From positions 1 to 57,033 of the forward strand of contig CAMLQY010000011.1 of NCBI GenBank assembly GCA_946482365.1: a DNA stretch of 57,033 nucleotides. The letters run 5' to 3'. The notes beneath the pieces are model-generated. The model searched no databases. It was not told the DNA's origin and was given only the letters and a program-made list of their open reading frames with translations. The position numbers and the translations under genes were made by a program. This document shows, piece after piece, positions 17,910-41,933 of the stretch; positions within the stretch are counted from its first letter, which is position 1; every line of letters starts with the position of its first letter. Origin of the DNA: an uncultured Actinomycetes bacterium (GTDB taxonomy: Bacteria > Actinomycetota > Thermoleophilia > Solirubrobacterales > 70-9).

Positions 17910-18016
17910 GGGCCATCCCGGCAGGGGTTCCACTTAACTTTTTCGAGCTGCGGCTGTGGCTGCTCATGGTCGAAGGCGAAAAAGTACAAGACGTTCCACC
18001 CCTGCCGGGATGGCCC
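17910..18016. repeat. Palindromic element, family 2, copy 1
   Basis: A 107-bp long hairpin. Outer arms are a perfect 18-bp pair (17910-17927 and 17999-18016, GGGCCATCCCGGCAGGGG and its complement). An asymmetric loop follows (TTCCACTTA on the left, ACAAGACGTTCCA on the right), then an inner 9-bp pair ACTTTTTCG (17937-17945) and CGAAAAAGT (17977-17985), and a variable centre. The loop and inner arm are shared with the copy at 41820-41933. It lies between glnB and the cyclase gene. The T run sits in the left arm, not after the hairpin, so intrinsic termination does not explain it. Confidence 0.8.
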
Positions 18017-18051
18017 TGAACACACCCGCCAAGTTCGTCGGACTCGGCGTC

Positions 18052-18057
18052 TAGCCT
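18052..18057 (+). promoter_or_regulatory. -10 box of the MerR-cyclase gene
   Basis: TAGCCT, 8 nt before ATG 18066; leaderless pattern. Confidence 0.5.
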
Positions 18058-18065
18058 CGCTTTCG

Positions 18066-19250
18066 ATGGCTGAGGAGCGGATATCTCTTGCCGAGGCCTC
18101 GCGACGGGCGGGGGTTTCGGCTGCGACGCTGAAGCGCTGGGCGGAGGAGAAGGTGGTGCCGGTGCGGCGTGGGCGCTGGACGGCCGCCGCCGCTGCGCAG
18201 GCACGAGTGGTGGCGCGGATGCGCGAGCGCGGCCACTCGCTCGAGGACCTGAAGCGGGCGGGCCGCGAGGGCCGCCTTGCCTTCGGCCTCGCCGAGGACC
18301 TGCTGCCCGAGGCGGAGCAACACGCGACGGTCGAGGAGGTGGCACGCGAGACCGGCCTCGAGCCAGAGCTGATCGAGCGCATCCTGGTCATCCTCGGCAC
18401 CCCCTTCGGCCGCGAGCGGATGCTCGGCCCCGCCGACGTCGCCGCCATGCGCCACTGCGCCCGCGTGCTCGCGGCGGGCTTCCCGCTGGTGGCGTTCCTG
18501 CAGCTGGTCCGGGTCTACGTCCAGTCGCTGCGGAGGATCGCCGACGCGGAGGTCCGGCTCTTCCACCTCTACGTGCACGAACCGATGATCCGCGACGGCG
18601 TGCCGGAGCTGGAGATGGCGGAGGAGATGGGGGGCCTGGCGGCTGACATCCTGCCCTTGGCTGCGCCGCTGACCGAGTACCTGCACACCCGCTACCTGCG
18701 CTTCTTCCTCGAGCAGGACGTGGTCGGCCACATGGAGAGCGAGCTCGGGTCGGCGGCTCCTCACCTCGGTCAGGTCCCGGTCACGCTCTGCTTCATAGAC
18801 CTCACCGGCTTCACCCGCTACACCGAGGAGGAGGGGGACCTCGAGGCGCTCGACGTAATCGAGAACTTCGTCGAGACGGTCGAGGCGACCCTGCCACCCG
18901 AGGCGACGATCGTGAAGACGATCGGCGACGAGGTGATGCTCGTCTCCCCCGACCGCGCCTCGCTCAGCGAGTGGGCGGTGCAGCTGCTCGACCGTCTGCC
19001 GGAGCGACCGCGCCCCCGCGTCGGCATCCACTACGCCGAGGCGGTCTACCGCGACGGTGACTACTTCGGCACTCACGTCAACCTCGTTCACCGGGTCGTT
19101 GGCCGCGCCCACGCCGGCGAGGTCCTGGTCACCGACCGCGTCGCCGAAGCGCTCGGCGATCGCGGCCTCACCTGCGAGCCGATCGGCGAGGTGACGCTGC
19201 GCGGCTTCCCCGAGCCCACCTCACTGTTCATCGTCCGCGCCGCGACCTGA
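18066..19250 (+). CDS. MerR-type DNA-binding / class III adenylate cyclase fusion (394 aa)
   Basis: Seen: an N-terminal MerR-like winged helix (SLAEASRRAGVSAATLKRWAEE, here given in part as SRRAGVSAATLKRW, residues about 12-26), a helical middle (about 70-225) resembling the regulatory half of a mycobacterial-type cyclase, and a C-terminal class III nucleotide cyclase domain. Catalytic elements are present: metal Asp245 in FIDLTGFT, Asp288 in TIGDEVM, and Asn339 and Arg343 in HVNLVHR. Substrate (ATP or GTP) is not certain; ATP is likelier. No membrane segments, so it is cytosolic and could bind DNA and make a second messenger at once. Likely leaderless. Confidence 0.88.
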   Translation: MAEERISLAEASRRAGVSAATLKRWAEEKVVPVRRGRWTAAAAAQARVVARMRERGHSLEDLKRAGREGRLAFGLAEDLLPEAEQHATVEEVARETGLEPELIERILVILGTPFGRERMLGPADVAAMRHCARVLAAGFPLVAFLQLVRVYVQSLRRIADAEVRLFHLYVHEPMIRDGVPELEMAEEMGGLAADILPLAAPLTEYLHTRYLRFFLEQDVVGHMESELGSAAPHLGQVPVTLCFIDLTGFTRYTEEEGDLEALDVIENFVETVEATLPPEATIVKTIGDEVMLVSPDRASLSEWAVQLLDRLPERPRPRVGIHYAEAVYRDGDYFGTHVNLVHRVVGRAHAGEVLVTDRVAEALGDRGLTCEPIGEVTLRGFPEPTSLFIVRAAT

Positions 19251-19261
19251 TGCCTCGGACC

Positions 19262-19267
19262 TAGACT
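19262..19267 (+). promoter_or_regulatory. -10 box of tilS
   Basis: TAGACT, 6 nt before ATG 19274; leaderless pattern. Confidence 0.5.
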
Positions 19268-19273
19268 CGTCGT

Positions 19274-20206
19274 ATGGAGAGCGAGGCGATGCTCGAGCGG
19301 GTTCGCGAGGACGGCCTGCTGGCGGATGCACCGCTCGTGGCGATGCTCTCGGGCGGGCGCGACTCGACCTGCCTGCTCGACCTCGCGGTGCGCCTGCTCG
19401 GCGCCGAGGCGGTCACCGCCCTGCACGTCAACTACGGCCTCCGCGATGATTCAGACGAGGACGAGGCGCACTGTGCGGCGCTCTGCGAACGGCTCGGCGT
19501 GCGGTTCGAGGTAGAGCGCCCGCGCCGGCCAGAGGGGCCGGGCAACCTTCAGGCCTGGGCGCGCGACACGCGCTACGCGGCGGCCGCGAGCCTGGCGCTG
19601 CCGGAGGAGGCGCTGATCGCCACCGGGCACACGGCCGACGACCAGGTCGAGACGATCCTCTACCGCCTCGCCTCCTCGCCCAGCCGGCGCGCCCTGCTCG
19701 GGATGCGGCCCCGCGACGGCAGCCTGGTTCGGCCGCTGCTCGGGTTCACCCGCGAGGAGACGACCGCCTACTGCGGGGAGCGCGAGCTGCCCTGGCGCGA
19801 CGACCCGACCAACGAGGGGGCCGGCTACGCGCGCAACCGGGTGCGTCACGGCCTCCTGCCGGCCCTGGCTGAGATCCATCCGGCGGCGGCGCGCAACGTG
19901 CTGCGCACGGCGGAGCTGCTGCGCGACGAGGCGGAGGTCCTCGACTCGCTCGTCGACGCCGAGCTGCGCAGTGCCAACGGCTCGCGGCCGGCGATCTCGC
20001 TCGATCGGCTCGGGGAGCTCCCAGGTGCGCTCCGTCGCCTGGTCGTCCAGCGCCTCGCCGATCGCGCCGCCGGCCGGCCGGTGCCGGGTGCCGCCAACCA
20101 TGCCGACGAGGTCGCCGCCCTGCGCCGCACCGGCACCGCGATGCTCGACCTCGGCGGCGGCGTCCGCGCCGTGGTCGAGCGCGGCGTCCTTCACGCCGAG
20201 CGCTGA
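19274..20206 (+). CDS. tilS: tRNA(Ile)-lysidine synthase TilS (310 aa)
   Basis: Adds lysine to C34 of the CAU tRNA-Ile, changing its codon from AUG to AUA; essential. Seen: PP-loop SGGRDS (residues 26-31), LHVNYGLRDDS, ATGHTADDQVETILYRL and the WRDDPTNEGAGYARNRVRH signature. The protein ends after the first C-terminal domain, as in short actinobacterial TilS. It opens the Bacillus-like gene string that runs to sigH. A perfect 24-bp palindrome lies between its stop and hpt. Confidence 0.94.
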   Translation: MESEAMLERVREDGLLADAPLVAMLSGGRDSTCLLDLAVRLLGAEAVTALHVNYGLRDDSDEDEAHCAALCERLGVRFEVERPRRPEGPGNLQAWARDTRYAAAASLALPEEALIATGHTADDQVETILYRLASSPSRRALLGMRPRDGSLVRPLLGFTREETTAYCGERELPWRDDPTNEGAGYARNRVRHGLLPALAEIHPAAARNVLRTAELLRDEAEVLDSLVDAELRSANGSRPAISLDRLGELPGALRRLVVQRLADRAAGRPVPGAANHADEVAALRRTGTAMLDLGGGVRAVVERGVLHAER

Positions 20207-20211
20207 ACAGC

Positions 20212-20264
20212 CCGCCGACGGGCCGATACGTCAACACATAGTTGACGTATCGGCCCGTCGGCGG
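20212..20264. repeat. Perfect 24-bp palindrome with 5-nt loop
   Basis: Left arm 20212-20235 (begins CCGCCGACGGGCC, ends CGTCAAC), loop ACATA (20236-20240), right arm 20241-20264. Every base pairs. It ends 6 nt before the -10 box of hpt. No T tract follows; it may terminate tilS, or act on DNA as a cruciform. Confidence 0.8.
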
Positions 20265-20270
20265 CATATC

Positions 20271-20276
20271 TAGACT
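20271..20276 (+). promoter_or_regulatory. -10 box of hpt
   Basis: TAGACT, 7 nt before GTG 20284. The -35 position lies inside the right arm of the palindrome, so cruciform formation could affect this promoter. Confidence 0.5.
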
Positions 20277-20283
20277 GCGGCGC

Positions 20284-20811
20284 GTGAGCGACCCCTCGAT
20301 CGGCGAGACCCTCGTCTCCAGCGAGGACCTGCAGCGGCGCGTCGCCGAGCTGGGCCTGCAGATCAGCGACGACTACGCCGGTCGCGACCTCGTCCTGGTC
20401 GGGGTGCTGAAGGGCGCCGTGCTCTTCCTCGCCGACTTGATGCGAAACGTCAGCGTGCCCTGCGAGGTGGACTTCATGGCCGTCTCCAGCTACGGGTCCC
20501 AGACCGACTCCTCGGGCGTGGTACGGATCATGAAGGACCTCGACGCTCCGATCGAGGGCCGTCACGTGCTGATCGTCGAGGACATCATCGACTCGGGCCT
20601 CACCCTGCAGTACCTGATGCGCAACCTGAAGGCGCGCAATCCCGCCTCGGTCGAGGTCTGCGCCCTGCTGACCAAGCCCGAGCGGCTGCGCGTCGACCTC
20701 TCTCCGCGGTACGTCGGCTTCGAGATACCCAACCGCTTCGCCATCGGCTACGGCCTGGACCACGCCCAGCGCTACCGCAACCTCTCCTACGTGGCCGCCC
20801 TGGACGAATAA
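20284..20811 (+). CDS. hpt: Hypoxanthine phosphoribosyltransferase (175 aa)
   Basis: Salvages hypoxanthine or guanine to the nucleotide with PRPP. Seen: the PRPP loop VLIVEDIIDSGLTL, LVGVLKGAVLFLADL, the flexible-loop SSYGSQTDSSG and the C-terminal IPNRFAIGYGLD that contacts the base. Normal length. The start is taken as GTG 20284 because of the -10 box 7 nt upstream; an earlier in-frame start would lie in the palindrome. Order tilS-hpt-ftsH matches the Bacillus tilS-hprT-ftsH string. Confidence 0.95.
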   Translation: MSDPSIGETLVSSEDLQRRVAELGLQISDDYAGRDLVLVGVLKGAVLFLADLMRNVSVPCEVDFMAVSSYGSQTDSSGVVRIMKDLDAPIEGRHVLIVEDIIDSGLTLQYLMRNLKARNPASVEVCALLTKPERLRVDLSPRYVGFEIPNRFAIGYGLDHAQRYRNLSYVAALDE

Positions 20812-20927
20812 CCAGGCACCGCCTCCTCCGCTCCCGCGCAGCCGCGCTAGTCACACCCGGCGATCTCGCGGCTGCGCTCCCGCGTCCGGGGGCGGCTGGA
20901 ATTGCCCTGGTACGCTGAATTTTCCCT

Positions 20928-22871
<1,944 letters not shown>

Positions 22872-22874
<3 letters not shown>

Positions 22875-22970
22875 GGGGCCACGCGGTGCCTCTCGTCCTG
22901 ACAAATGCCGGTCTAATTAGACCGGCATTTTGAGTATCCGCCAGTCCGAGAGGCACCGCGTGTCCCCTCA
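22872..22970. repeat. Nested palindrome joining ftsH stop and folP start
   Basis: Outer arms of 24 bp (22872-22895 and 22947-22970) pair with one mismatch; inside lies a 28-nt perfect palindrome (22903-22930, core GGTCTAATTAGACC). The left outer arm begins with the ftsH TGA, and the right arm holds the folP GTG (22960-22962). The inner hairpin has A and T flanks and could terminate in both directions; if read through, the outer stem would hide the folP start. Confidence 0.8.
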
Positions 22971-23745
22971 GGTCATGGGGATCGTCAACGTCACTCCCGA
23001 CTCGTTCTCGGACGGGGGCAGGTACCTGGACGCAGCTGCGGCGATCGGGCATGGCGAAAAGCTCGTGGAGGATGGGGCGACGATCTTGGATGTGGGCGGG
23101 GAATCGACTCGGCCGGGGGCGGAAGAAGTCGCCGAGGCAGAGGAGCTGCGACGGGTCAAGCCGGTGGTCGCCGGGCTTGCCGACAAGGCGACCCTCTCGA
23201 TCGACACCTCCAAGGCGGCGGTGGCGATGGCGGCGATCGACTCGGGGGCGACGATCGTCAACGACGTGACGGCATTGCAGGGGAACCCTGAGATGGCTTC
23301 GCTGTGCGCCGAGCGGGGGGTCGGCGTCGTGCTCATGCACATGCCCGGCAATCCGCGCACGATGCAGGACGATCCCAGCTACGACGACGTCGTCGACGAC
23401 GTCAAGGCCTTTCTCTCCGGGCAGCTGGAATTCGCCGTGTCGCGGGGCATCGCCGAAGACAGGGTCTGGCTGGATCCGGGGATCGGGTTTGGGAAGACGC
23501 CGGAGCACAACCTGGAGCTGTTGCGGCGGCTGGGAGAGCTGCGGGAGCTGGGGCGGCCGCTGGTGATAGGGACCTCTCGCAAGAGCTTCATCGCCGCGGT
23601 CGATGGGTCCTCGGTCGACGACCGCATCGGCGGCACGATCGCCTCCTCGGTTCTCGCCGTTGCCGAGGGCGCCGACGTGCTGCGCGTCCACGACGTGGCC
23701 GAGATGTCCCAGGCTTTGCGCGTCGCCGAAGCGGTGTTGGGATAG
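22960..23745 (+). CDS. folP: Dihydropteroate synthase (261 aa)
   Basis: Joins p-aminobenzoate to the pterin in folate synthesis; the sulfonamide target. Seen: MGIVNVTPDSFSDGG, GGESTRPGA, SIDTSKAAVA, VNDVTAL and the C-terminal IGTSRKSF and ADVLRVHDV motifs, all in order. The start GTG 22960 begins just before the conserved VMGIVNV; TTG 22930 is an alternative but lies in the palindrome. folB and folK follow closely, forming a folate operon. Codons in the first 600 bases use G- and T-ending forms more than neighbouring genes do. Confidence 0.96.
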   Translation: MSPQVMGIVNVTPDSFSDGGRYLDAAAAIGHGEKLVEDGATILDVGGESTRPGAEEVAEAEELRRVKPVVAGLADKATLSIDTSKAAVAMAAIDSGATIVNDVTALQGNPEMASLCAERGVGVVLMHMPGNPRTMQDDPSYDDVVDDVKAFLSGQLEFAVSRGIAEDRVWLDPGIGFGKTPEHNLELLRRLGELRELGRPLVIGTSRKSFIAAVDGSSVDDRIGGTIASSVLAVAEGADVLRVHDVAEMSQALRVAEAVLG

Positions 23746-23752
23746 TTCGACC

Positions 23753-24175
23753 ATGGAGGCTCACGACAACGGGATGGAGTCGAACGTCGAGGTTGAGCTG
23801 CGCGGGCTCTCGATCTACACCCACCACGGGGTGAGCGACTCCGAGCAGGAGGTGGGCCAGCGGCTCGAGTTCGACGTCTCCTTCGACGTTCCCGACTGCG
23901 ACGCCGTGCTGACCGACCGCATCGAGGACACGGTGGACTACGGCGAGGTCTGCGACATCGTCGCCCTCGCGGCCACCGAGCGCAGCTACCGCACCCTCGA
24001 GCGCCTCGCCCAGGTGGTCGGCCAGCGCTTGATGGAGCGTTACGGCTGCGCCTCGGTCCGCGTCCGCGCCGCCAAGCCCGAGCCGCCGTTGCCGCTGGCG
24101 ATCCAGGAGGTCGCGGTCGAGGTCGTCCAGGAACGAGCCGAAGAGCCCGACGAAGAAGAGCCCGACGAGGTTTAG
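23753..24175 (+). CDS. folB: Dihydroneopterin aldolase (140 aa)
   Basis: Converts dihydroneopterin to 6-hydroxymethyl-dihydropterin and glycolaldehyde. Seen: LRGLSIYTHHGVSDSEQEVGQRLEFDV, here cited as THHGVSDSEQEVGQ, VDYGEV, the catalytic-type Lys in RAAKPEPPLPLA. The C-terminus carries an acidic tail EEPDEEEPDEV not typical of the enzyme. Start ATG 23753 is followed by a second in-frame ATG at 23774 that lies closer to the fold. Seven bases after folP, six bases before folK. Confidence 0.94.
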   Translation: MEAHDNGMESNVEVELRGLSIYTHHGVSDSEQEVGQRLEFDVSFDVPDCDAVLTDRIEDTVDYGEVCDIVALAATERSYRTLERLAQVVGQRLMERYGCASVRVRAAKPEPPLPLAIQEVAVEVVQERAEEPDEEEPDEV

Positions 24176-24181
24176 CTGCGC

Positions 24182-24673
24182 GTGCGGACCGGCTACCTGG
24201 GGCTGGGCTCGAACGAGGGCGATCGCCGGTCGCACTTGAGGGCGGCGATCGAGTTGCTGGGCGAAAGGGGGATGGAGGTCGAGGCGGTCTCCTCCGTCTA
24301 TGAGACCGAGCCGGTCGGCGAGGTGCTCGACCAGCCCGACTTCCTCAACGCCGCGATCCGCATCCGCACCGAGCTGGAGCCCGAGGCGCTGCTCGACCTC
24401 TGCAAGCAGGTCGAGGCCGAGCGCGGCCGGGCCCTGGGCGCCCCCCGCCACAGCCCGCGCCCGCTAGACGTCGACCTGCTCATGCTCGGCGACCTGCAGC
24501 TGAAAACCGACCGCCTGACGCTGCCCCACCCCGAGGTCACCAGCCGCCGTTTCGTTCTCATGCCCCTCCTTGAACTCAATCCCGACCTCGCACTCCCGGA
24601 CGGCACGAGTCTCGCGAAGGCGCTGGATGCGCTCGGCGAACTCGAACGAGTCGATCAGGTAGGCCCGCTCTGA
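24182..24673 (+). CDS. folK: 2-amino-4-hydroxy-6-hydroxymethyldihydropteridine pyrophosphokinase (163 aa)
   Basis: Transfers pyrophosphate from ATP to the pterin, the step before FolP. Seen: YLGLGSNEGDR, VSSVYETEPVG, QPDFLNAAIRI, the ATP-binding signature RPLDVDLLMLG and LPHPEVTSRRFVLMPL. Start GTG 24182. Normal length. Last gene of the folP-folB-folK set. Confidence 0.95.
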   Translation: MRTGYLGLGSNEGDRRSHLRAAIELLGERGMEVEAVSSVYETEPVGEVLDQPDFLNAAIRIRTELEPEALLDLCKQVEAERGRALGAPRHSPRPLDVDLLMLGDLQLKTDRLTLPHPEVTSRRFVLMPLLELNPDLALPDGTSLAKALDALGELERVDQVGPL

Positions 24674-24709
24674 GTCAAGACCAGGCCATCGAATGCCGAT
24701 AGCGGTTCG

Positions 24710-25102
24710 GTGATCGCCGTCGACTTGCTGGTTGCCGCCGTCCAGGCAGTGGTTTGGATTGGAGGATGGTCGATGCTGCTTGCCCTGCCCATCGCCTGGC
24801 TGCGGGTCCGTCGCAAGCCGACCTGGACAGGCCGCCCGCCCGAGGGGCGCAGTTTCGACCTGATGGTGCTCGGAGATTTCGTCATGAGGCCGGTGTGGGT
24901 CGCAATCCTTCCGGCCTGGCTGACACTGGCTGTGATCGCGATCGCCGACTTAGGGCTCTCCTCCCAAGAGCTCTTCGCGTTGGTCTGGGGCCCCCCGACG
25001 ATCTTTGTTCCCCTTGCGGTTCTGCGGCTTGATGACGGCCGTCTTCCTGCTGTCGTTGCGGAGATGGGAGACCACCGCGCATCGGAACGGGCGGAGGGCT
25101 GA
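24710..25102 (+). CDS. Small membrane protein, unrecognised (130 aa)
   Basis: No family recognised. Seen: two or three hydrophobic segments (about residues 3-28, 60-82 and 88-102) with a basic loop RVRRKPTWTGRPPEG between the first two, and a hydrophilic tail. Codon choice is less biased to C/G wobble than in the neighbouring genes, which suggests a recent or fast-evolving gene. Start GTG 24710 is uncertain. It may be the lineage-specific insert in the folK-to-dusB part of the conserved string. Confidence 0.5.
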   Translation: MIAVDLLVAAVQAVVWIGGWSMLLALPIAWLRVRRKPTWTGRPPEGRSFDLMVLGDFVMRPVWVAILPAWLTLAVIAIADLGLSSQELFALVWGPPTIFVPLAVLRLDDGRLPAVVAEMGDHRASERAEG

Positions 25103-25120
25103 GTTGCCGGCCGACTACTA

Positions 25121-25876: not shown

Positions 25877-25884
25877 GGCGAGGC

Positions 25885-25892
25885 ATCATAAT
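25885..25892. promoter_or_regulatory. Bidirectional leaderless promoter, GST-like gene / coaX
   Basis: The whole gap is 23 bp. Leftward -10 TATGAT (25885-25890) is 8 nt from the GST-like ATG; rightward -10 CATAAT (25887-25892) is 7 nt from the coaX GTG. The boxes share four bases, so the genes should be mutually exclusive at any moment. Confidence 0.6.
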
Positions 25893-25899
25893 CGCGGCC

Positions 25900-32556: not shown

Positions 32557-32567
32557 AGCTGCGGCCT

Positions 32568-32573: not shown

Positions 32574-32581
32574 TCGGTCTC

Positions 32582-33712: not shown

Positions 33713-33715
33713 CCT
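33710..33715 (+). promoter_or_regulatory. -10 box of the MFS gene, overlapping the upstream stop codon
   Basis: TAGCCT: its first three bases are the TAG stop of the upstream gene, and it lies 7 nt before ATG 33723. The MFS gene may thus have its own leaderless transcript. Confidence 0.5.
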
Positions 33716-33722
33716 GCGCTCG

Positions 33723-35153
33723 ATGGACCGCAAGTGGTGGACCCTGATCGGGGCCTGCTCCGGGCTCTTCCTGCTGATGCTGGATTCCACCGTCGTGGCG
33801 CTGGCGCTGTCCTCGATCCGCGCCGACCTCGGCACCGATGCGGCGGAGCTGCAGTGGGTGATGAACGGCTACCTGCTGACGATCGCCGTGCTCGTGGTGA
33901 CCGCCGGGCGGCTGGGCGACATGTTCGGTCGCAAGCGGGTCTTCGTCGTCGGCATGGCGCTCTTCGGGGCGGGCTCGGTGCTCTCGGGCGCGGCGCAGGA
34001 CCCGCTGATGCTGATCGGCGGGCGGGTCCTGCAGGGCGTCGGCGCAGCTCCCGTCCTCTCGCTCTCGCTGGCGATCGTCTGCAACGCCTTTCCGGCCGGC
34101 GAGCAGCCGCGGGCGCTGGGCGCCTGGGCGGCGGTCTCGGCGGTTGCCCTGGCGATCGGCCCGGTCCTCGGCGGGGCGCTCGTCGCACTCGACTGGCGGC
34201 TGATCTTCTGGGTCAACCTGCCGGTGGTCGCGCTCGGCCTGGCGATCGTCGTGGCCGCCGCGCCGGAGTCGACCGATCCCGGTGCTGGCAGGCGGATCGA
34301 CCTGCCCGGGCTGCTGGCGCTCACCGTCGGCCTGACCGCCGTCGTCCTGGCGATGATCCAGTCGCGGGCCTGGGCCGCGGCGGCCACCGCCTCCCTGGCG
34401 GTGCTGGGCGTCCTAGCCCTGGCGCTCTTCGCCCGGATCGAGCGCCGCGTGCGCGAGCCGATCGTCGAATTCGAGCTCTTTCGCAACGGCCCCTACTTCG
34501 GCGCCAGCGCCGCCGCCTTCGCCGTCGTCGGCTCTTACTGGGCCGTGATGTTCTTCCAGCCCCAGTACCTCCAGGACGCGCTCGGGCACTCGGCGATCCT
34601 CAGCGGCGTGCTGATCCTGCCGGTCACGGTCCCGATGGTGTTCATCTCACCCTTCTCGGGCCGGCTGATCGGTCGCTTCGGCGCGCGCCGGCTGATGACG
34701 GCGGGGATGCTCTTCGGCACCGCGGGGCTCCTCGTCTTGACCCGGATCGCGCCGGACACCTCCTATGCCCTGGCGCTGGTCGGCTACCTGCTCTTCGGAA
34801 TCGCGATCGGCCTCGTCTACGCCCCGATGTCGACGGCGGCGATGGCGGCGATGCCGGCGGAGAAGGTCGGGATCGCCTCCGGGGTGCTGGCGATGGACCG
34901 GATCGTCGCCGGCTCGCTTGCCCTTGCCGCGACGGGCGCGGCCTTTCACGCGCTGCAGGCCGCAGGCGACTCGTTCACGGACTCGATCGCCGGCTCGACC
35001 TGGGTCTCGGTCGCCCTCTGTGCCCTCGGCACCGTCCTGACCTGGCTCTTCGTTCGCGATCCAGGCTCGCCCGGTCCCGACCCCGCCGTGGCGGGCGAGC
35101 CCCGGGCGGAAGACCTCCAGCACCACCGCCATCACCGTCGTTTCCACCTCTGA
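33723..35153 (+). CDS. MFS drug-efflux transporter, DHA2 type (476 aa)
   Basis: Proton-driven exporter of the 14-helix EmrB/QacA group. Seen: motif A-like GRLGDMFGRKRVFVVG after helix 2, LDSTVVALAL in helix 1, motif C-like region AIGPVLGGALVALDWRLIFWVNLP (cited in part as GPVLGGALVALDWR), and further helices to residue about 450, then a His-rich tail (HHRHHRRFHL). Substrate unknown. Ten bases after the aldo/keto reductase-like gene. Confidence 0.9.
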   Translation: MDRKWWTLIGACSGLFLLMLDSTVVALALSSIRADLGTDAAELQWVMNGYLLTIAVLVVTAGRLGDMFGRKRVFVVGMALFGAGSVLSGAAQDPLMLIGGRVLQGVGAAPVLSLSLAIVCNAFPAGEQPRALGAWAAVSAVALAIGPVLGGALVALDWRLIFWVNLPVVALGLAIVVAAAPESTDPGAGRRIDLPGLLALTVGLTAVVLAMIQSRAWAAAATASLAVLGVLALALFARIERRVREPIVEFELFRNGPYFGASAAAFAVVGSYWAVMFFQPQYLQDALGHSAILSGVLILPVTVPMVFISPFSGRLIGRFGARRLMTAGMLFGTAGLLVLTRIAPDTSYALALVGYLLFGIAIGLVYAPMSTAAMAAMPAEKVGIASGVLAMDRIVAGSLALAATGAAFHALQAAGDSFTDSIAGSTWVSVALCALGTVLTWLFVRDPGSPGPDPAVAGEPRAEDLQHHRHHRRFHL

Positions 35154-35187
35154 TTGCGGGACTTGCGGCCTTGGGTGACGAGACTCC

Positions 35188-35216
35188 TTGACAACGACCA
35201 TCCCGACCTGTCCACT
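35188..35216 (+). promoter_or_regulatory. Candidate promoter of disA
   Basis: TTGACA (35188-35193), 17-nt spacer, TCCACT (35211-35216). The -35 is a perfect match, the -10 moderate. Transcription would start near 35223, ahead of a small hairpin with a T run. Confidence 0.45.
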
Positions 35217-35229
35217 TGGATTTGCCCAC

Positions 35230-35251
35230 ACCGCATTGGAAAGCGGTTTTT
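35230..35251 (+). terminator. Terminator-like hairpin in the disA leader
   Basis: ACCGC-attggaa-AGCGGT-like stem (CCGC 35231-35234, GCGG 35243-35246) followed by TTTTT (35247-35251). It lies between the candidate promoter and the disA start, so it could attenuate disA or, in part, end the MFS transcript. The stem is short. Confidence 0.35.
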
Positions 35252-35267
35252 GCCATCCTAGACGGCG

Positions 35268-36380
35268 ATGTCAGCGCTTCCTGGGGATGAGCTTCATGAG
35301 TTGTCCGAACGCCAAGATCCCCGCCTACTGAGAGCTCTCGACGTGGTCGCGCCGGGCGGTGCCCTGCGCGAGGGGCTCGACAACATCGTCCACTCCCGCA
35401 GCGGTGGCCTGATCGTCGTCGGCGACCCGGGCGACATCTCCCACCTGCTCTCCGGAGGGATCCAGCTCGACATCGACTACACGCCGGCGATGCTGTACCA
35501 GGTGGCGAAGATGGACGGTGCCATCGTGCTCAACGCCGAGGCGACGAAGATCGTCTGGGCCAACGTCCAGCTGATGCCCGACCCGACGATCCTCTCGGCC
35601 GAGACCGGCACCCGCCACCGCACGGCCGAGCGTGTCTCCAAACAGACCGAGGCGCTGGTGATCGCCATCTCCCAGCGCCGCGACGTGGTCTCCCTATACG
35701 TCGAGGGGACGAAGTACATCCTGCAGGACATCCCCGCGGTGCTGGCCAAGGCGAACCAGGGCCTGGCGACCCTCGACAAGTACCGCGCCCGGCTCGACCA
35801 GGTCTCCAACCGGCTCACCGTGCTCGAGTTCGAGGGCGGCGGGGTCCTCTACGACGCGCTCGCCGTCCTCCAGCGCGCCGAGCTGGTGACCCGGATGGCG
35901 GTCGAGGTCGAGCGCTACATCGTCGAGCTCGGCACCGAGGGCCGCCTGATCGAGATGCAGCTGGAGGAGACGATGGTCGGCGTCGCCGCCGACAAGTCGT
36001 CGCTGATCCGCGACTACAGCCTCGAAGACTCCGAGGAGAACCTGGCGACGGTGCTGCAGTCGCTGGCGCGGCTGCCGCACCAGGACGTGCTCGACTTCGG
36101 CCGTCTCGCCGAGCTGCTCGGCTACGACCGCAAGCTGAACACCCTCGACTTCCCGGTCGCTCCGCGGGGCTACCGCGTGCTCGGCCGCGTGCCGCGCATC
36201 CCAAAGCTTGTCGTCCAGAAGATCATCCACGAGCTGGGTGGGCTGGAGGAGGTCCTGGCTGCCTCCGACGCCGACCTCGAGGCTGTCGAGGACGTCGGCC
36301 CGACCAGGGCAAAGGACATCCGCGAGGGCCTGCGCAGGCTTCAGGAGGTCGACCTGGTCGACCGGTACCTACAAAGCTGA
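35268..36380 (+). CDS. disA: Diadenylate cyclase DisA, DNA integrity scanning protein (370 aa)
   Basis: Makes c-di-AMP from two ATP and scans DNA for branched structures. Seen: DAC domain with DGA (residues 83-85) and RHR (116-118), a helical linker, and a C-terminal helix-hairpin-helix domain with LGGLEEVLAASDADLEAVEDVGPTRA (cited in part as EAVEDVGPTRAKDI). Usual length, octamer expected. Given that DisA binds branched DNA, the many long palindromes in this chromosome are of interest as possible targets (inference). carD follows in the same frame 63 bases downstream. Confidence 0.97.
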   Translation: MSALPGDELHELSERQDPRLLRALDVVAPGGALREGLDNIVHSRSGGLIVVGDPGDISHLLSGGIQLDIDYTPAMLYQVAKMDGAIVLNAEATKIVWANVQLMPDPTILSAETGTRHRTAERVSKQTEALVIAISQRRDVVSLYVEGTKYILQDIPAVLAKANQGLATLDKYRARLDQVSNRLTVLEFEGGGVLYDALAVLQRAELVTRMAVEVERYIVELGTEGRLIEMQLEETMVGVAADKSSLIRDYSLEDSEENLATVLQSLARLPHQDVLDFGRLAELLGYDRKLNTLDFPVAPRGYRVLGRVPRIPKLVVQKIIHELGGLEEVLAASDADLEAVEDVGPTRAKDIREGLRRLQEVDLVDRYLQS

Positions 36381-36443
36381 ACGGCGAATCGACGCCGTCG
36401 AAAAGGAAAGGAGCACCCGATTTCTGAGCTAGCAGAGGAGGCC

Positions 36444-36986
36444 ATGGAGGTGGGCTTCGAGTCCGACGTCCCTTACGTCTGCGACTTCGAAGAGGGGGAC
36501 AAGGTCGTCTATCCCCATCACGGCGCTGGCCTGGTACTGAAGAAGGAGTCTCGTGAGCTGATGGGGGAGGAGCGGGACTACCTGACGATCAAGATCCTCC
36601 ACAACGAACTCACGGTGATGGTCCCCTGCGAGAACGCCGGCGTCGCCGGCCTTCGGCGGGTCATCGACGAGGTGGAAATCAAGAAGGTCACGGACGTCCT
36701 CACCGATGAGGTGTCCGACATGCCGAAGAACTGGAACCGGCGCTTCAAGTACAACCGCGAGAAGATCAAGACCGGCGACGTGTTCGAGCTGGCCGAGGTT
36801 GTCCGCAACCTCGCGATCCGCGAGATGGAAAAGGGCCTCTCCACCGGCGAGAAGCAGATGTACACGCGGGCGAAGAAAATCCTCGCCTCGGAGTTCATGT
36901 ACGCGCTCGACAAGGACGAGGAGGGCGCAGAGGAATACCTCGACGGCTTGCTGGAGGAGCGCTTCGCCGCCACGGCGACCGCGTAG
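36444..36986 (+). CDS. carD: CarD-family RNA polymerase-binding regulator (180 aa; start may be ATT 36420)
   Basis: Stabilises open promoter complexes by binding the RNA polymerase beta subunit. Seen: N-terminal RID/Tudor-like domain (EEGDKVVYPHHGAGLVL), then a helical DNA-binding domain with PKNWNRRFKYNREKIKTGD and YTRAKKILASEFMYAL. Start: ATG 36444 has GGAGG only 2 nt upstream, too close. Eight codons earlier an in-frame ATT (36420) has AAAGGAG (36407-36413) at an ideal 6 nt. No other start exists between the disA stop and 36444. The extended N-terminus ISELAEEA resembles family members with a short helix there (recall). Confidence 0.93.
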   Translation: MEVGFESDVPYVCDFEEGDKVVYPHHGAGLVLKKESRELMGEERDYLTIKILHNELTVMVPCENAGVAGLRRVIDEVEIKKVTDVLTDEVSDMPKNWNRRFKYNREKIKTGDVFELAEVVRNLAIREMEKGLSTGEKQMYTRAKKILASEFMYALDKDEEGAEEYLDGLLEERFAATATA

Positions 36987-36996
36987 CGCCGGCAGC

Positions 36997-37716
36997 GTCA
37001 CCGCGGTCCTCGCGGCCGCCGGCTCCGGGCAGAGGCTCGGAGCCGGCGGCCCGAAGGCCTTCGTGCCGCTGGCCGGAAGGCGGATGGTCGAGTGGTCGAT
37101 CGCGGCTTGCCGCAAGGCCGTTTCCGTGCGCTCGATCGTGGTCGCCTGCCCGCCCGGGCACGTCCACGACCTGGCGGGGAGCGACCTCGGCGTGGTCGAC
37201 GGTGGCGCCACGCGCGCTCAATCGGTGTCGAACGCCCTCGCAGCGGTCGAGACCGGGCTGGTCGCGATCCACGACGCGGCGCGGCCGCTGGTCACGGCGG
37301 GCCTGATCGAGGACGTCGTGGCGACCCTCCTCGCCGATCCCGACGCCGCCGCCGCGATCGCCGCGACCCCCGTCACCGACACGATCAAGCGGGCCACGTC
37401 TTCCCACAGCCCTGGGTGCAACGCGTTGGATGCCCATACCACGGCAAAAACGTTGCACCCGGAGGTTGAGGGGACGGTGGACCGAGGGCGGCTGTGGGCA
37501 GCGCAGACGCCCCAGGTCTTCAGGGTCGAGGCCTTGCGAGAGGCGCTGGGGGGCGATCCGGATCGCGTCGCGGCGGCAACCGACGAGTCGATGCTGGTCG
37601 AGGGGGCGGGGGGGAAGGTGCTGATCCACCCCTCGCCGGCGGAGAACCTCAAGGTGACGACGCCGCTCGACCTCAGGCTGGCGGAGCAGCTCCTCAGGGA
37701 GCGCTCAGCGCAGTAG
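36997..37716 (+). CDS. ispD: IspD, MEP cytidylyltransferase, with no canonical start and an in-frame palindromic insertion
   Basis: Transfers CMP to methylerythritol 4-phosphate in isoprenoid synthesis. Seen: AVLAAAGSGQRLG, GGPKAFVPLAGR, VHDAARPLV-like AIHDAARPLVTAGL, ATPVTDTIKR, LWAAQTPQVFRVE and ATDESMLVEGAGG, all intact and in frame. Two oddities. First, the frame has no ATG, GTG or TTG near the N-terminus; the codon where GTG is expected reads GTC (36997), 11 bases after the carD stop, so the start given is provisional. Second, after TIKR there are about 20 extra residues (roughly 133-158) encoded around a 10-bp inverted repeat (37414-37423 and 37451-37460). Confidence 0.85.
   Translation, partial: VTAVLAAAGSGQRLGAGGPKAFVPLAGRRMVEWSIAACRKAVSVRSIVVACPPGHVHDLAGSDLGVVDGGATRAQSVSNALAAVETGLVAIHDAARPLVTAGLIEDVVATLLADPDAAAAIAATPVTDTIKRATSSHSPGCNALDAHTTAKTLHPEVEGTVDRGRLWAAQTPQVFRVEALREALGGDPDRVAAATDESMLVEGAGGKVLIHPSPAENLKVTTPLDLRLAEQLLRERSAQ
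37414..37460. repeat. Palindromic insertion inside ispD
   Basis: Perfect arms GGGTGCAACG (37414-37423) and CGTTGCACCC (37451-37460) around a 27-base centre. The stretch encodes SPGCNALDAHTTAKTLHPE, which has no counterpart in normal IspD between TIKR and VDRGRLWAAQTP. Confidence 0.7.
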
Positions 37717-37866
37717 GGCCCAGACGAGCGCTGCGGTGAAGCAGAGCTGCCCGATCCCCAGAGCGACCCCGAGGCTGGCGGCGCCGAGCGCCCCGGCGAC
37801 CGCCGCTCCGCCGAGGAAGGCGCCGGCGAGGAGGCCGAGCTGGGCCCCGGCGCGACCCTCAGGCAC
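37705..37866 (-). CDS. Small two-helix membrane protein (53 aa)
   Basis: Reading leftwards from GTG 37866: a short polar start (VPEGRAGAQ), then two hydrophobic Gly/Ala/Leu segments (about residues 9-32 and 33-51) and an Arg end. It overlaps the stop of the DUF389 gene by 8 nt, so it should be cotranslated, and its last 12 bases overlap the convergent end of ispD. No function known; a partner of the DUF389 protein is plausible. Confidence 0.6.
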   Translation of the reverse strand: MPEGRAGAQLGLLAGAFLGGAAVAGALGAASLGVALGIGQLCFTAALVWALLR

Positions 37867-38809
37867 GTCCGGCCTCGGCGACGTGGCGCCGCCTGCGCCG
37901 CTCGAAGAGCGCTCTCTGCACGGACAGCGTGGCGACGCCGGCGAGGACGATCGCGGTGAGGTTGACGCTGAGCTGCAGCATCGCGCCCCGCCAGTCCGCC
38001 CAGTTGCCGAGTGCCGCCGCCACGCCGATGTTCGCCGCGGCGGGAATCGTCGTCACTGAGATCAGCACCCCGACCAGCGCACCCGACTTGGCGGAGGTGA
38101 GCGAGAGCATGCCGGCTGCGCCGGCGAAGATGGCGACGATGAAGGAGAAGGTGTCGGGCTCGGCGATGAACCGGGTCAGCGGGTTGTCGACGCTCTTGAA
38201 GCCGGAGTCGACCAGGCCGACGGAAACGCAGAGGAGTGTGAAGAGGAAGGCGGCGGTGATGCCGACCGGAAAGCCGACGGCGAGCGCCGCCAGCGAGCGC
38301 ACCGCGACGCTGCGACGCCGCTCGACGGCCGCCACGCAGAGCCCTGCCAGGGGCCCGAACTCGGGGCCGACGACCATTGCGCCGATGATCAGGATCGGCG
38401 AGCCGGTGAAGATCCCGACCGAGGCGATCAGGCAGGCGAGGGACATGAAGAAGAGGAAGTTGCCGCCCAGCTCGGTGGTCTCCGAGGTGCGGGCCTCGAC
38501 CTCCTCCCAGACGACGGCGTCCGATGGCACCCCGCGCGCCGCTCGCTCGGCCCGCTTGGCTGCGTCGGAGAGCTGCGAGTCGATCTGCTCGAGCGCGATC
38601 GAGCCGTCGCGCGCCACCCCAAGCTCCTTCAGGTCCTCGATCAGGACGCTCGCTTCCTCGCGGGCGATGTCGCAGAGGACGACGTCGCCGCGGGGCTGGC
38701 GGGCGGCGCCGGGCAGGAGAACCAGATTGGAGGTCGACGGTGCCGTTTCGAGCAGGTCGAGGACCTTCTGGCAGCGGTCTTCGGGGACGACGATCCGCAA
38801 GTGGACCAT
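37859..38809 (-). CDS. DUF389 membrane protein (316 aa)
   Basis: Family of unknown function. Seen: a soluble N-terminal domain (residues 1-110, ferredoxin-like, MVHLRIVVPEDRCQKVLDLL), the family hallmark GAMVVGPEFGPLAGLCVA in the first membrane pair, and five to six membrane segments to residue about 300 with a basic tail RRRRRR. TACGCT (minus strand, 38816-38821) lies 6 nt before the ATG, so it is likely leaderless. Divergent from the PHP gene, and inserted with it between ispD and ispF. Confidence 0.88.
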   Translation of the reverse strand: MVHLRIVVPEDRCQKVLDLLETAPSTSNLVLLPGAARQPRGDVVLCDIAREEASVLIEDLKELGVARDGSIALEQIDSQLSDAAKRAERAARGVPSDAVVWEEVEARTSETTELGGNFLFFMSLACLIASVGIFTGSPILIIGAMVVGPEFGPLAGLCVAAVERRRSVAVRSLAALAVGFPVGITAAFLFTLLCVSVGLVDSGFKSVDNPLTRFIAEPDTFSFIVAIFAGAAGMLSLTSAKSGALVGVLISVTTIPAAANIGVAAALGNWADWRGAMLQLSVNLTAIVLAGVATLSVQRALFERRRRRHVAEAGRA

Positions 38810-38815
38810 GGCGTC

Positions 38816-38845
38816 AGCGTATCCGCGCCCCGGGTCGCCTACTCT
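38816..38845. promoter_or_regulatory. Divergent -10 boxes, DUF389 / PHP genes
   Basis: TACGCT on the minus strand (38816-38821), 6 nt from the DUF389 ATG; TACTCT on the plus strand (38840-38845), 9 nt from the PHP ATG at 38855. Confidence 0.45.
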
Positions 38846-38854
38846 GCGCGTCCG

Positions 38855-39697
38855 ATGCTGACCGACTACCACCTGCACCTGCGCCCGGACGATCCGGGCA
38901 CGCTGCCCGAGAGCTTCTTCACCGCCGAGAACGTCGAGCGCTACCTGGCGGCCGCCCGCGACGCCGGGATCGAGGAGCTCGGCGTCTCCGAGCACGTCTA
39001 CCGCTTCACCCAGGCGCTCGACCTCTGGCGCCACCCGTTCTGGGAGGAACAGGCGCGCGACGACCTCGACGCCTACTGCGAGTTCGTCCGCGGGACGCCG
39101 CTGCGGCTGGGGATCGAGTGCGACTTCGTCCCCGGCGCCGAGGACCGCACCGCGACCCTGCTGGAGGCACGGGACTTCGACTACGTGGTCGGCTCGGTCC
39201 ACTTCGTCGGCGAGGCCGCGGTCGACCACGAGGGCTGGGACGTCTGGGATCGCAAGGGGGACGCGGACGAGGTCTGGCGTCGTTACTTCGACGCCCTGGC
39301 GGAGTGCGCCCGCTCCGGCCTCTTCGACGTCCTCGCCCATCCCGACCTGGTCAAGGTCTGGGGCGCCGGCCGGCCGCTGCCCGAGCGCGACCCGCGCCGC
39401 TACTACGAGCCGGCGGTCGAGGCGATCGCGGAGAGCGGGATCGCGGTCGAGGTCTCCACGGCGGGCCTGCGCAAGCCGGTCGGGGAGATCTACCCCGCGC
39501 GCGCGTTTGCCGAGATGTGCGTCGAGGCGGGGGCGGTTTTCGCGCTTTCCTCCGACGCCCACCGTCCCGAGCACGTCGGCTTCCGCTACGAGGACGCTGT
39601 CGGGTTCCTCGGCGAGCTGGGGGTGGAGGAGATCTGTGCCTTCGAGAGCCGCCGGCGACGGCTGGAGCCGCTCGGCGCCGCGGTGCGCGAGGATTGA
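38855..39697 (+). CDS. PHP-domain phosphatase, histidinol-phosphatase-like (280 aa)
   Basis: Metal-dependent phosphoesterase of the PHP group, HisJ/HisK-like. Seen: DYHLHL (metal ligands), GVSEHVYRF, GIECDFVPG, GSVHFVGE, VLAHPDLVK and ALSSDAHRPEHVG, which together supply the trinuclear site. Length fits histidinol phosphatase, but the window has no his operon to confirm the role. Start ATG 38855. Four bases before ispF. Confidence 0.85.
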   Translation: MLTDYHLHLRPDDPGTLPESFFTAENVERYLAAARDAGIEELGVSEHVYRFTQALDLWRHPFWEEQARDDLDAYCEFVRGTPLRLGIECDFVPGAEDRTATLLEARDFDYVVGSVHFVGEAAVDHEGWDVWDRKGDADEVWRRYFDALAECARSGLFDVLAHPDLVKVWGAGRPLPERDPRRYYEPAVEAIAESGIAVEVSTAGLRKPVGEIYPARAFAEMCVEAGAVFALSSDAHRPEHVGFRYEDAVGFLGELGVEEICAFESRRRRLEPLGAAVRED

Positions 39698-39701
39698 GCC
39701 G

Positions 39702-40157
39702 ATGAGCGTCGGCATCGGCTACGACAGCCACCGCTTCGCCGAGGGACGTCGCCTGGTCCTCGGCGGGGTCGAGATCGAGCACACGCGGGGCCTCGCCGGC
39801 CACTCCGACGCCGACGTCCTCACCCACGCCGTGATCGACGCCCTGCTCGGCGCCGCCGGCATGGGGGACATCGGCACACTCTTCCCCGACGACGAGGATC
39901 GCTGGCGCGACGCCGACTCGATCGACCTGCTGCGTACGGTGGTCGGCACCGTCTCCGGCCGGATCGTCAACGTCGACGCGACCCTCGTCTGCGAGGAGCC
40001 GCGCATCGGCCCCTTCCGCGCGGAGATGGAGCGGGTCCTGGCCGAGGCGACCTCGGCCAGGGTCAGCGTCAAGGCGACCACCAACGAGGGCATGGGCTGG
40101 ATCGGGCGCGGCGAGGGCATCGCATGCATCGCGGTGGCCTCCCTCGATAGCGAATAA
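39702..40157 (+). CDS. ispF: IspF, 2-C-methyl-D-erythritol 2,4-cyclodiphosphate synthase (151 aa)
   Basis: Cyclises the MEP-pathway intermediate with release of CMP; zinc-dependent trimer. Seen: GIGYDSHRF (Asp8 and His10 as zinc ligands), GLAGHSDADVLTHAVIDALLGA (His42 region, cited in part as LAGHSDADVLTHA), GDIGTLFPD and the C-terminal KATTNEGMGWIGRGEGI. Normal length. Separated from ispD by the DUF389 and PHP genes, unlike the adjacent pair in Bacillus. The TAA stop is part of the hexamer TAACCT, 10 nt before the acyl-CoA ligase ATG. Confidence 0.95.
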   Translation: MSVGIGYDSHRFAEGRRLVLGGVEIEHTRGLAGHSDADVLTHAVIDALLGAAGMGDIGTLFPDDEDRWRDADSIDLLRTVVGTVSGRIVNVDATLVCEEPRIGPFRAEMERVLAEATSARVSVKATTNEGMGWIGRGEGIACIAVASLDSE

Positions 40158-40170
40158 CCTTCTCGCTCCG

Positions 40171-41835
40171 ATGGGGAAACTCGGCTCCATAGCTACCGGC
40201 GCGCGGCAATCGCTCGCCGACACGGTCTTCGAGGCGAAGGTCCTGCGCGAGGCCGGGATCCTCGGCTTCTCGCGGCCCGACAGGGCAGCAAAGGTCGCGG
40301 CGACCTTCCTGCGCTGGGGCGCCTCTCCGGCGACCGGCGTCGCCACCGCCGCCCACAAATACCCGCACGAGACCTTCATCGTCGACGAACGGGGCTCACT
40401 CAGCTTCGAGCGCGTCCAGCGCCGCACGAACGCCCTCGCCCATGCCTTCGCCGGGATGGGGATCGGCTACGGAGACGGGATCGGGATCATGTGCCGAAAC
40501 CACCGGGGGTTCATCGAGGCTACCGTCGCGGCGGCCAAGCTCGGCGCCAGCGCGCTCTACCTGAACACGATGTTCGCCGGCCCCCAGCTGGTCGAGGTGA
40601 TGCGGCGCGAGGGGCCGAAGGCGCTGGTCTACGACGAGGAGTTCGCCAGCCTGCTGGACGGCGTGGACGGGGGCGTCGAGCGGATCGTCGCCTGGGCCGA
40701 CGGGGAGCCGGAAGGACAATCCCTGGAGTCCTTGATCGCCGCCAACGACGACTCGAACCTGAAGCCTCCGCCCGACAAACCGCGCTTCGTCATCCTCACC
40801 TCGGGCACCACCGGCACCCCGAAGGGAGCGCAGCGCTCCAGCCCCGACGGACTGCTCTCGCTGGCGGCGCTGATCGACAGGATCCCCTTTCGCGCTCGCG
40901 AGACGATGATGATCGCGGCGCCGCTCTTCCATTCCTGGGGCTTCTTCCACTTCGTGATGAGCCTGCCGACCGCTTCGACGATCGTGCTGCGCCGTCGTTT
41001 CGACGAGGAGGGGACGCTGGGCGCGATCCAGGAGCATCGCGCCCAGGTGCTCGCCGTCGTGCCGGTGATGCTGCAGCGCATCCTCCAGCTACCGCGGGAG
41101 ACGCTCGACGCATACGACCTCTCCTCGCTGCGGATCACCTCGGTCTCCGGCTCGTCCCTTCCGGGCGAGCTGGCCACGGAGTGGATGGACCGCTTCGGCG
41201 ACACCGTCTACAACCTCTACGGCTCGACCGAGGTCGCCTACGCGACGGTCGCCACCCCCGAGGACCTTCGAGCGGCGCCGGGCACCGCGGGGAAGGCGCC
41301 ACGTGGCACGGTGGTCAGGCTCTACGACGAGGCGGGGCAGGAGGTCCCGACCGGAGAGGTCGGGCGGATCTTCGTCGGCAACGAAATGTCCTTCGAGGGC
41401 TACACCGGCGGCGGCGGCAAGGAGGCGATCGACGGGCTGCTCTGCAGCGGCGACGTCGGCCACGTCGACTCCGCCGGCCGCCTCTTCATCGACGGCCGCG
41501 ACGACGAGATGATCGTCTCCGGCGGCGAGAACGTCTTCCCGCGCGAGGTCGAGGACCTGCTCGCCGACCACGGCGAGGTGGTCGAGGTCGCGGTGATCGG
41601 GGTGGAGGACGAGGAGTTCGGCCAGCGGCTGAAGGCCTTCGTCGTGCTCGCCGCCGAGGCCAGGGTCTCCGAGGAGGACCTGCAGGCCCATGTCAAGGCC
41701 AACCTCGCCTCCTACAAGTCGCCGCGCGAGATCGAGTTTCTGGACGAGCTGCCGCGAAACGCGACGGGGAAGGTGTTGAAGCGGGAGCTGCGGGAGCGTG
41801 AGGCCGAGGGGTCTGCGGAGAGCCCGTCCCGGTAG
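40171..41835 (+). CDS. Acyl-CoA synthetase (AMP-forming), fatty-acid type (554 aa)
   Basis: ANL-superfamily ligase that adenylates a carboxylic acid and passes it to CoA. Seen: P-loop-like TSGTTGTPKG, the acyl pocket AAPLFHSWGFFHF, NLYGSTEVAYAT, GDVGHVDSAGRLFIDGRDDEMIVSGG and the C-terminal catalytic Lys in PRNATGKVLKREL. An N-terminal extension of about 60 residues precedes the usual start. The final codons and the TAG stop (41833-41835) lie inside the left arm of a family 2 palindromic element, so the element supplies the C-terminus. Confidence 0.92.
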   Translation: MGKLGSIATGARQSLADTVFEAKVLREAGILGFSRPDRAAKVAATFLRWGASPATGVATAAHKYPHETFIVDERGSLSFERVQRRTNALAHAFAGMGIGYGDGIGIMCRNHRGFIEATVAAAKLGASALYLNTMFAGPQLVEVMRREGPKALVYDEEFASLLDGVDGGVERIVAWADGEPEGQSLESLIAANDDSNLKPPPDKPRFVILTSGTTGTPKGAQRSSPDGLLSLAALIDRIPFRARETMMIAAPLFHSWGFFHFVMSLPTASTIVLRRRFDEEGTLGAIQEHRAQVLAVVPVMLQRILQLPRETLDAYDLSSLRITSVSGSSLPGELATEWMDRFGDTVYNLYGSTEVAYATVATPEDLRAAPGTAGKAPRGTVVRLYDEAGQEVPTGEVGRIFVGNEMSFEGYTGGGGKEAIDGLLCSGDVGHVDSAGRLFIDGRDDEMIVSGGENVFPREVEDLLADHGEVVEVAVIGVEDEEFGQRLKAFVVLAAEARVSEEDLQAHVKANLASYKSPREIEFLDELPRNATGKVLKRELREREAEGSAESPSR

Positions 41836-41933
41836 GGGTTCCGCTTAACTTTTTCGAGAGGCGGCGACTGCTTGACGCTCAAGGCGCACTCGCGAAAAAG
41901 TACAAGACGCTCCACCCCTACCGGGACGGGCTC
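41820..41933. repeat. Palindromic element, family 2, copy 2
   Basis: A 114-bp hairpin. Perfect 19-bp outer arms (41820-41838 and 41915-41933, GAGCCCGTCCCGGTAGGGG and complement), asymmetric loop TTCCGCTTA / ACAAGACGCTCCA, inner pair ACTTTTTCG (41848-41856) and CGAAAAAGT (41893-41901), variable centre. Against the copy at 17910-18016, a C-G pair has become T-A, and the loop base A facing T has become G facing C. The T of the changed pair creates the stop codon of the upstream gene. Confidence 0.8.

Follow-up and report, generated by a model that had tools for sequence, protein, structure and literature searches.

A dispersed, probably mobile-type family of palindromic DNA elements of about 110 bp at gene 3' ends and in reading frames of Solirubrobacterales-type Actinomycetota

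Two palindromic sequences carried by a 57,033-nucleotide stretch of DNA from an uncultured Actinomycetes bacterium (Thermoleophilia, Solirubrobacterales; assembly GCA_946482365.1, contig CAMLQY010000011.1; hereafter the window) are, in our judgement, probably copies of a dispersed, mobile-type family of palindromic DNA elements of about 110 bp, which belongs to one Solirubrobacterales-type clade, would have its arms copied at the DNA level and may be put to use at the 3' ends of genes. The original prediction had described two elements 24 kb apart, with common strings on the left and on the right and perfect outer arms of 18-19 bp; both copies were located there, the strings are common to them as described, and the outer arms are complementary at 19/19 positions in copy 1 and at 21/21 in copy 2 (Table 1). 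As single strands they fold with z values of -7.0 and -10.0, and none of 200 shuffles folded equally well. That the two are the ends of one transposon was considered and dropped, as they lie 24 kb apart in the same direction.

Results

Arm covariation in the window copies and in the family

Two compensatory changes between the copies had been reported, from which it was argued that the folded form is selected. The compensation is real but was undercounted: in the alignment, 4 of the 19 shared arm pairs differ between copy 1 and copy 2, all four of them compensated (G-C to A-T, G-C to C-G, A-T to G-C and C-G to T-A), and a fifth compensated change, A-T to G-C, affects an R/Y pair adjoining the internal loop, while uncompensated changes were absent over the 19 arm pairs and the R/Y pair. 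As to selection of the fold, the covariation is strong and an asymmetric internal loop is kept, but covariation in itself is no proof of it. A covariation test on 23 copies (2 from the window and 21 from an exact-pattern scan described below) gave 134 cells with changes in both partners, where shuffles gave 38, with 96.2% of cells pairing against 40-54% when the partner was slid; inner-stem and loop letters cannot vary in this set, because the pattern scan had fixed them.

Selection on an RNA stem should make G·U pairs commoner than A·C mismatches, and this offers a way to distinguish between RNA folding and events at the DNA level. Among 1410 outer-arm pairs from 71 copies, 1355 were Watson-Crick, 22 A·C, 17 G·U and 16 other; this count left aside 34 of the 105 copies of the working set because of a failed anchor or a low helix score, several of them (e.g., L030 and L032) visibly perfect-armed. 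The inner stem, counted in 59 copies (46 of the 105 dropped), gave 508 Watson-Crick, 1 A·C, 2 G·U and 3 other pairs out of 514. Transfer RNA stems, taken as a control, gave 429 Watson-Crick, 0 A·C, 13 G·U and 1 other among 443 pairs, a count drawn from 37 distinct tRNA sequences in all collected loci, overlapping ones included, and from the stem lines of ARAGORN, which itself favours G·U over A·C. Since an A·C on one strand is a G·U on the other, the 17 against 22 in the arms mean that wobble is not clearly favoured on either strand. This nearly Watson-Crick-only covariation therefore points to copying of the arms at the DNA level, and not to selection of an RNA fold, and it fits arms that are held identical in the DNA, as template switching in the course of replication could do. 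Such switching from one inverted repeat to the other is a known process that changes both arms in one event (PMC8794818). Since this process would be expected to remove the mismatched loop as well, the persistence of that loop in the copies suggests a separate selection on the core; given this conserved asymmetric loop, selection probably acts on a feature that is folded or specific to one strand.

Anatomy and distribution of the family

The element is a long hairpin of about 110 bp, made up from outside to tip of an outer stem, a 3x3 mismatch, a two-pair step, an asymmetric internal loop, an inner stem and the tip. The outer stem has about 20 bp and a sequence specific to each locus. It is followed by a symmetric pyrimidine mismatch (TCC/TCC in the window copies, TYC/TYC in many type A copies) and by the step RC/GY, whose R and Y covary (15 G-C and 8 A-T in 23 copies). 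The internal loop, TTA facing ACAAGAC, and the inner stem (ACTTTTTCG/CGAAAAAGT) are conserved, the latter likewise changing in complementary fashion across copies, and the tip is variable. Variants of the family have CTCAAC...ACAAGCCG or an inner stem ACCCTT.../...AGGGT, and a more distant form reads CTGGGTTTTTCGCC...GCGAAAAACAGGACGCCG. Terminal inverted repeats, by which miniature inverted-repeat transposable elements are recognized, are not common to the copies, as the outer arms vary by locus and the inner part of the arm is only partly shared.

The genome-wide search called for by the original prediction uncovered a family of dispersed copies. An exact-pattern scan of our genome collection returned 21 copies on 19 contigs, confined to five metagenome-assembled genomes (MAGs) named Solirubrobacterales or Thermoleophilia. 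With a covariance model built from the 23 copies, a fuller search matched all five of these genomes, with 11-29 listed matches each, corresponding by manual count, once reverse-strand echoes were removed, to at least 25, 9, 18, 13 and 12 separate sites in genomes G001-G005; copy numbers are lower bounds because only the best first-look candidates of each genome were scored (150 in the fuller search, 18 for the order and 9 for the class). Matches were obtained in 12 of 201 genomes of the order (Solirubrobacterales-type MAGs) and in 9 of 399 genomes of the class, all nine being among those twelve. Among the genomes searched, the family is thus restricted to one Solirubrobacterales-type clade of Actinomycetota, in which, judged by one gene, G001 (85%) and G005 (83%) are the closest relatives of the window in our sample. 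Searches of open-licence PubMed Central (PMC) papers returned no earlier account of an element of this type from the group. After removal of overlaps and reverse-strand echoes the working set comprised 105 hits, 104 of them distinct (L096 has the same sequence as L068, both lying at contig ends of one draft), and about a dozen, which score around or under 45 bits, represent the more distant form.

Position relative to genes

With a self-written Markov model as gene caller, 59 of the 105 copies proved to have a gene of the same direction whose end lies between -45 and +30 bp relative to the start of the element, and 16 to have a facing gene that terminates on the opposite side, so that 47 copies were classed as sense-only, 4 as antisense-only, 12 as both and 42 as neither. 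A count independent of the caller, based on open frames of at least 150 amino acids, gave 69/105 in sense and 38/105 in antisense, compared with 11.5% of 2100 random positions. Each of ten chosen upstream genes had a Pfam domain in the sense frame, and the genes concerned are ordinary ones of various kinds: in the window P-II and an AMP-binding enzyme, and elsewhere RNase J, acyl-CoA dehydrogenase, UvrA, H+-pyrophosphatase, PNTB and others. A Rho-independent terminator consists of a hairpin followed by a T tract, a make-up that the copies generally lack, because a run of four T in the 16 bases surrounding the right arm's end was present in just 2 of the 80 best-scoring copies.

Eleven close pairs were counted by hand in the hit list, ten of them tail to tail and one tandem. 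The pair of L054 lies between convergent genes, both supported by Pfam and each with its own sense copy, and L078 is a further such case by the gene caller only, whereas three tail-to-tail pairs (L040, L080 and L105) sit at a single gene, here called gene Y, and not between two convergent genes. In genome G082 the plus copies of the inverted pairs (L110, 1714-2129 and 6335-6748; L054, 1501-1852) are by eye alike, as are the minus copies, and the L110 pairs have similar spacers of 177-178 bp, as if each pair were one composite unit. A reading of the pairs as REPIN-like paired elements was considered and dropped.

Presence and absence at orthologous junctions

Orthologous junctions were compared at genes that we take, from their protein sequences, to be clpP, ndk, maf, miaB, miaA and glnN (the names sucD, gltB and M23 peptidase were given to other genes in the same way); several of the assignments below were made partly by eye (ndk-maf, miaB-miaA and glnN). 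At the clpP junction a copy was present in 2 of 30 loci, the other 28 having none within 190 bases, two of these being shortened by contig ends. The ndk-maf junction held a copy in 3 of 15 loci, with an unrelated palindrome in a fourth and one locus that could not be judged, and the miaB-miaA junction, in 15 loci, showed 3 full copies, 1 with a deleted tip and 1 small hairpin, 4 loci being incomplete. Behind glnN, 14 loci comprised 3 full copies, 1 internally deleted remnant, 1 apparent remnant of a right arm and 2 other palindromes. Filled and empty junctions, which are often tightly packed, indicate that copies come and go as discrete units. At clpP, ndk-maf, miaB-miaA and glnN the two kinds of site have diverged beyond the point at which a target-site duplication would be visible. 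By eye, the right half of a second copy stands directly 3' of the full ndk copy in L214. Also by eye, the start codon of the next gene seems to overlap the clpP stop in L147, L149, L153, L154 and L156 (ATTAAG or CTGAAG), a hint that a non-standard codon serves as a coupled start.

At the two window sites the relatives compared lack the element. The end of the AMP-binding gene carried no family copy in 16 judgeable loci (a seventeenth stops at the gene), and other palindromes occupy the same spot in three relatives. Behind the P-II gene, named glnB here, the element was absent from all seven relatives, of which four (L255-L258) have a simple GC-rich hairpin, two (L259 and L260) another hairpin, and one (L261) no hairpin of 10 bp. 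Since the window has the element where several relatives have an ordinary GC-rich hairpin, a role as 3'-end hairpin is suggested.

Copies in frame inside genes

Of ten hits that the gene caller placed inside genes, the nine examined belong to five genes, and in all five a long frame remains open through the element. Because GC-rich sequence has many open frames, homology on both sides is the stronger evidence for an in-frame position. In the glycosyltransferase of L035 the insert occupies a linker between VDTEEFxP and LVVFVG, and among the 120 homologs listed, of 7993 matches, the peptide ASC(T/A)F...KKLSG was present in 41 by a strict pattern and in four more by eye, the sense-strand reading LNFF...EKVQDAP in 2, a short linker in 37 and other inserts in 36. 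From the peptide, in a comparison made on proteins, we infer that the inserts bearing it would be elements. The same linker (P0001-P0120) hosts the present element in both orientations, and also unrelated insert families, e.g., PAGGAVGG..EEALATGGGGGSPAATGPAG and GRGSCHGGRGACGRA..HATRGR. For gene Y, which has no Pfam match, three filled orthologs and one empty (L300) were among the six caught by a text pattern out of 17 genomes with a match.

Features of the window and other palindromes

The coordinates of both copies, of their parts and of their host genes are given in Table 1.

Table 1. Positions of the two window copies, their host genes and copies of a further palindrome family in genome G005
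Feature	Position	Strand	Remarks
Element copy 1 (covariance-model span)	17909..18020	+	111.8 bits; begins 6 bp 3' of P-II gene stop, same direction
Copy 1, left outer arm	17910..17928	+	
Copy 1, inner stem left strand ACTTTTTCG	17937..17945	+	internal-loop TTA before it at 17934-17936
Copy 1, inner stem right strand CGAAAAAGT and ACAAGAC (long side of internal loop)	17977..17992	+	
Copy 1, right outer arm	17998..18016	+	
Element copy 2	41819..41936	+	109 bits; overlaps AMP-binding enzyme gene stop codon, same direction
Copy 2, left outer arm	41819..41839	+	includes TAG stop of upstream gene, 41833-41835
Copy 2, inner stem left strand	41848..41856	+	
Copy 2, inner stem right strand and ACAAGAC loop	41893..41908	+	
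Copy 2, right outer arm	41914..41934	+	
Host gene of copy 1, nitrogen regulatory protein P-II (named glnB here)	17535..17903	+	Pfam P-II, E 4.2e-25
Host gene of copy 2, AMP-binding enzyme	40171..41835	+	Pfam AMP-binding, E 7.9e-66
Further-family copy, G005, L128	9674-9782		
Further-family copy, G005, L130	19477-19577		
Further-family copy, G005, L136	3977-4074		

Palindromes of other sequence are also present in the window. One at 43899-43970, of another family with 30-nt arms that are 90% complementary, lies in frame in a cysteinyl-tRNA synthetase gene (Pfam), where it codes for a Gly-rich segment that separates the catalytic from the DALR domain; in L224 a palindrome that resembles it by eye stands behind the AMP-binding gene. 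Another at 22868-22974, with outer arms of 24/25 bp and the inner stem AAATGCCGGTC/GACCGGCATTT, overlaps the stop of an FtsH-type gene (AAA and peptidase M41) and has a similar architecture in other sequence. A perfect 24-bp hairpin with a 5-nt loop (20212-20264) starts 6 bp 3' of a PP-loop family gene. Finally, a further family with CGTCCG...AGTCGCTCCCA between its arms has, by eye, three copies in genome G005.

Discussion

The observations can be brought together in a mechanism in which a small non-autonomous element would spread by means of a trans-acting enzyme that recognizes the folded single strand through the conserved mismatched internal loop. After landing, template switching would keep the outer arms complementary and produce Watson-Crick-only covariation, and copies 3' of genes may then be kept as hairpins at transcript 3' ends. 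A bolder version, which we put forward as a tentative possibility, is that the identity of the element lies in the folded single strand itself, with a fixed asymmetric core recognized by an enzyme and arms rewritten at each site, and that it serves both as a 3'-end hairpin and as a source of linker peptides, at landing sites common to unrelated palindrome families.

Several points weigh against a mobile-type family. The analysis brought to light neither near-identical recent copies nor a target-site duplication nor a transposase, the enzyme having been sought only as Y1_Tnp, and for this reason current mobility is not established. The sense bias 3' of genes exceeds what a purely selfish element needs, and 42 of 105 copies have no gene end nearby, in part owing to contig ends, intragenic copies and miscalls. 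At the close pairs, 5 of 8 flanking frames had no Pfam domain and 3 had one, so that several of the gene calls there are unproven. The left arm at miaB aligns by eye without gaps with the coding sequence of relatives and may be target DNA and not part of the element; that arms are templated from the target at insertion would fit miaB but was discarded, since by eye the empty ndk-maf sites contain no such sequence. As for the proposed use at gene ends, copies at the clpP, ndk-maf and miaB-miaA junctions, where the genes are codirectional, argue against a strong terminator, and L259, L260 and L261 make the replacement of a terminator at glnB one reading only.

Much of the same evidence would be expected if the copies were structured RNAs of 3' untranslated regions, selected for their fold through protein binding or stability and multiplied by ordinary duplication: they stand in sense behind genes, their asymmetric loop is conserved, their folds are very stable, and in the convergent pair of L054 (and, according to the gene caller alone, in L078) both genes come with a sense copy of their own. 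We nevertheless regard this as unlikely, because G·U does not exceed A·C in the arms (17 vs. 22 of 1410) or appreciably in the inner stem (2 vs. 1 of 514), tRNA stems behaving differently, and because antisense copies occur inside genes. Moreover, Rfam covariance models run on the window at the gathering score returned only a tRNA elsewhere and no match at the elements, the sub-threshold matches of copy 1 being at chance level. Plain Rho-independent terminators, sharing their sequence by descent, would account for the position at gene ends and for the ordinary hairpin of several relatives at glnB; but the near absence of T runs, a length of 110 bp with a conserved core and the in-frame intragenic copies make this explanation improbable. 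Still more remote is movement of non-autonomous palindromes by a transposase of the repetitive extragenic palindromic (REP) sequences, the REP-associated tyrosine transposase (RAYT). Palindromic form, dispersal and frequent inverted pairs would agree with it, as would the TAG stop supplied by the arm, which is described for GTAG REPs (PMC3733652), whereas the size and architecture of the element differ and Y1_Tnp, found in 24 of 201 genomes, was found in 0 of the 12 with elements, which are drafts and in which about 1.4 would be expected by chance. An integron attC site, suggested by a resemblance of RCTTAAC to the R'' box, was set aside as well; no cassette context was noted and no integrase search was made.

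In behaviour, a dispersed palindromic DNA family of this kind has its closest known counterparts in the Rickettsia palindromic elements, which share its occurrence in frame, and in SPRITE, which shares its occurrence at gene ends. Rickettsia palindromic elements are described as sequences of about 150 bp in several families, found in intergenic DNA and in frame in unrelated protein genes (PMC10969869). Like them, the present family consists of dispersed palindromes of similar size (105 hits of about 110 bp) and stands in frame inside genes (9 copies in 5 genes) with a conserved peptide; unlike them, it occurs in a different phylum, many copies lie flush behind stops in sense, and locus-specific arms surround a fixed asymmetric core. 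SPRITE of Streptococcus pneumoniae is a dispersed hairpin repeat with an 18-bp stem, enriched near gene 3' ends and proposed to act as co-opted terminators (PMC3049150), but it has a uridine-rich tract after the stem, which has no counterpart here in a T tract, and the outer stems of the present family vary by locus. REP sequences and bacterial interspersed mosaic elements are also palindromic, multi-copy, near gene ends and able to supply a TAG stop (PMC3733652, PMC12306157). REPs, however, measure 20-40 bp against about 110 bp here, bear a GTAG or CGTC tag and are linked to RAYTs, while GTAG, where present in this family, lies inside a paired arm and is not an unpaired REP tag, and no Y1_Tnp was found in the 12 element-bearing draft genomes. 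Multi-base compensatory changes have been attributed to DNA template switching (PMC8794818), although that study concerns RNA genes, in which most two-step changes pass through G-U, unlike the present arms, where G·U does not exceed A·C.

A view of two copies alone could not reveal the family, its position at gene ends, its differences in presence and absence or its in-frame copies. The family offers a natural case in which near-perfect stem covariation seemingly does not come from selection on RNA, and thus calls for caution in covariation-based RNA discovery, for which the comparison of G·U with A·C is a simple test that separates RNA selection from copying at the DNA level. It also places small palindromes at operon junctions and at a site where relatives carry an ordinary hairpin, and it shows that insertion of palindromes in frame, for which Rickettsia is the best-known example (PMC10969869), reaches into Actinomycetota that are known from metagenomes.

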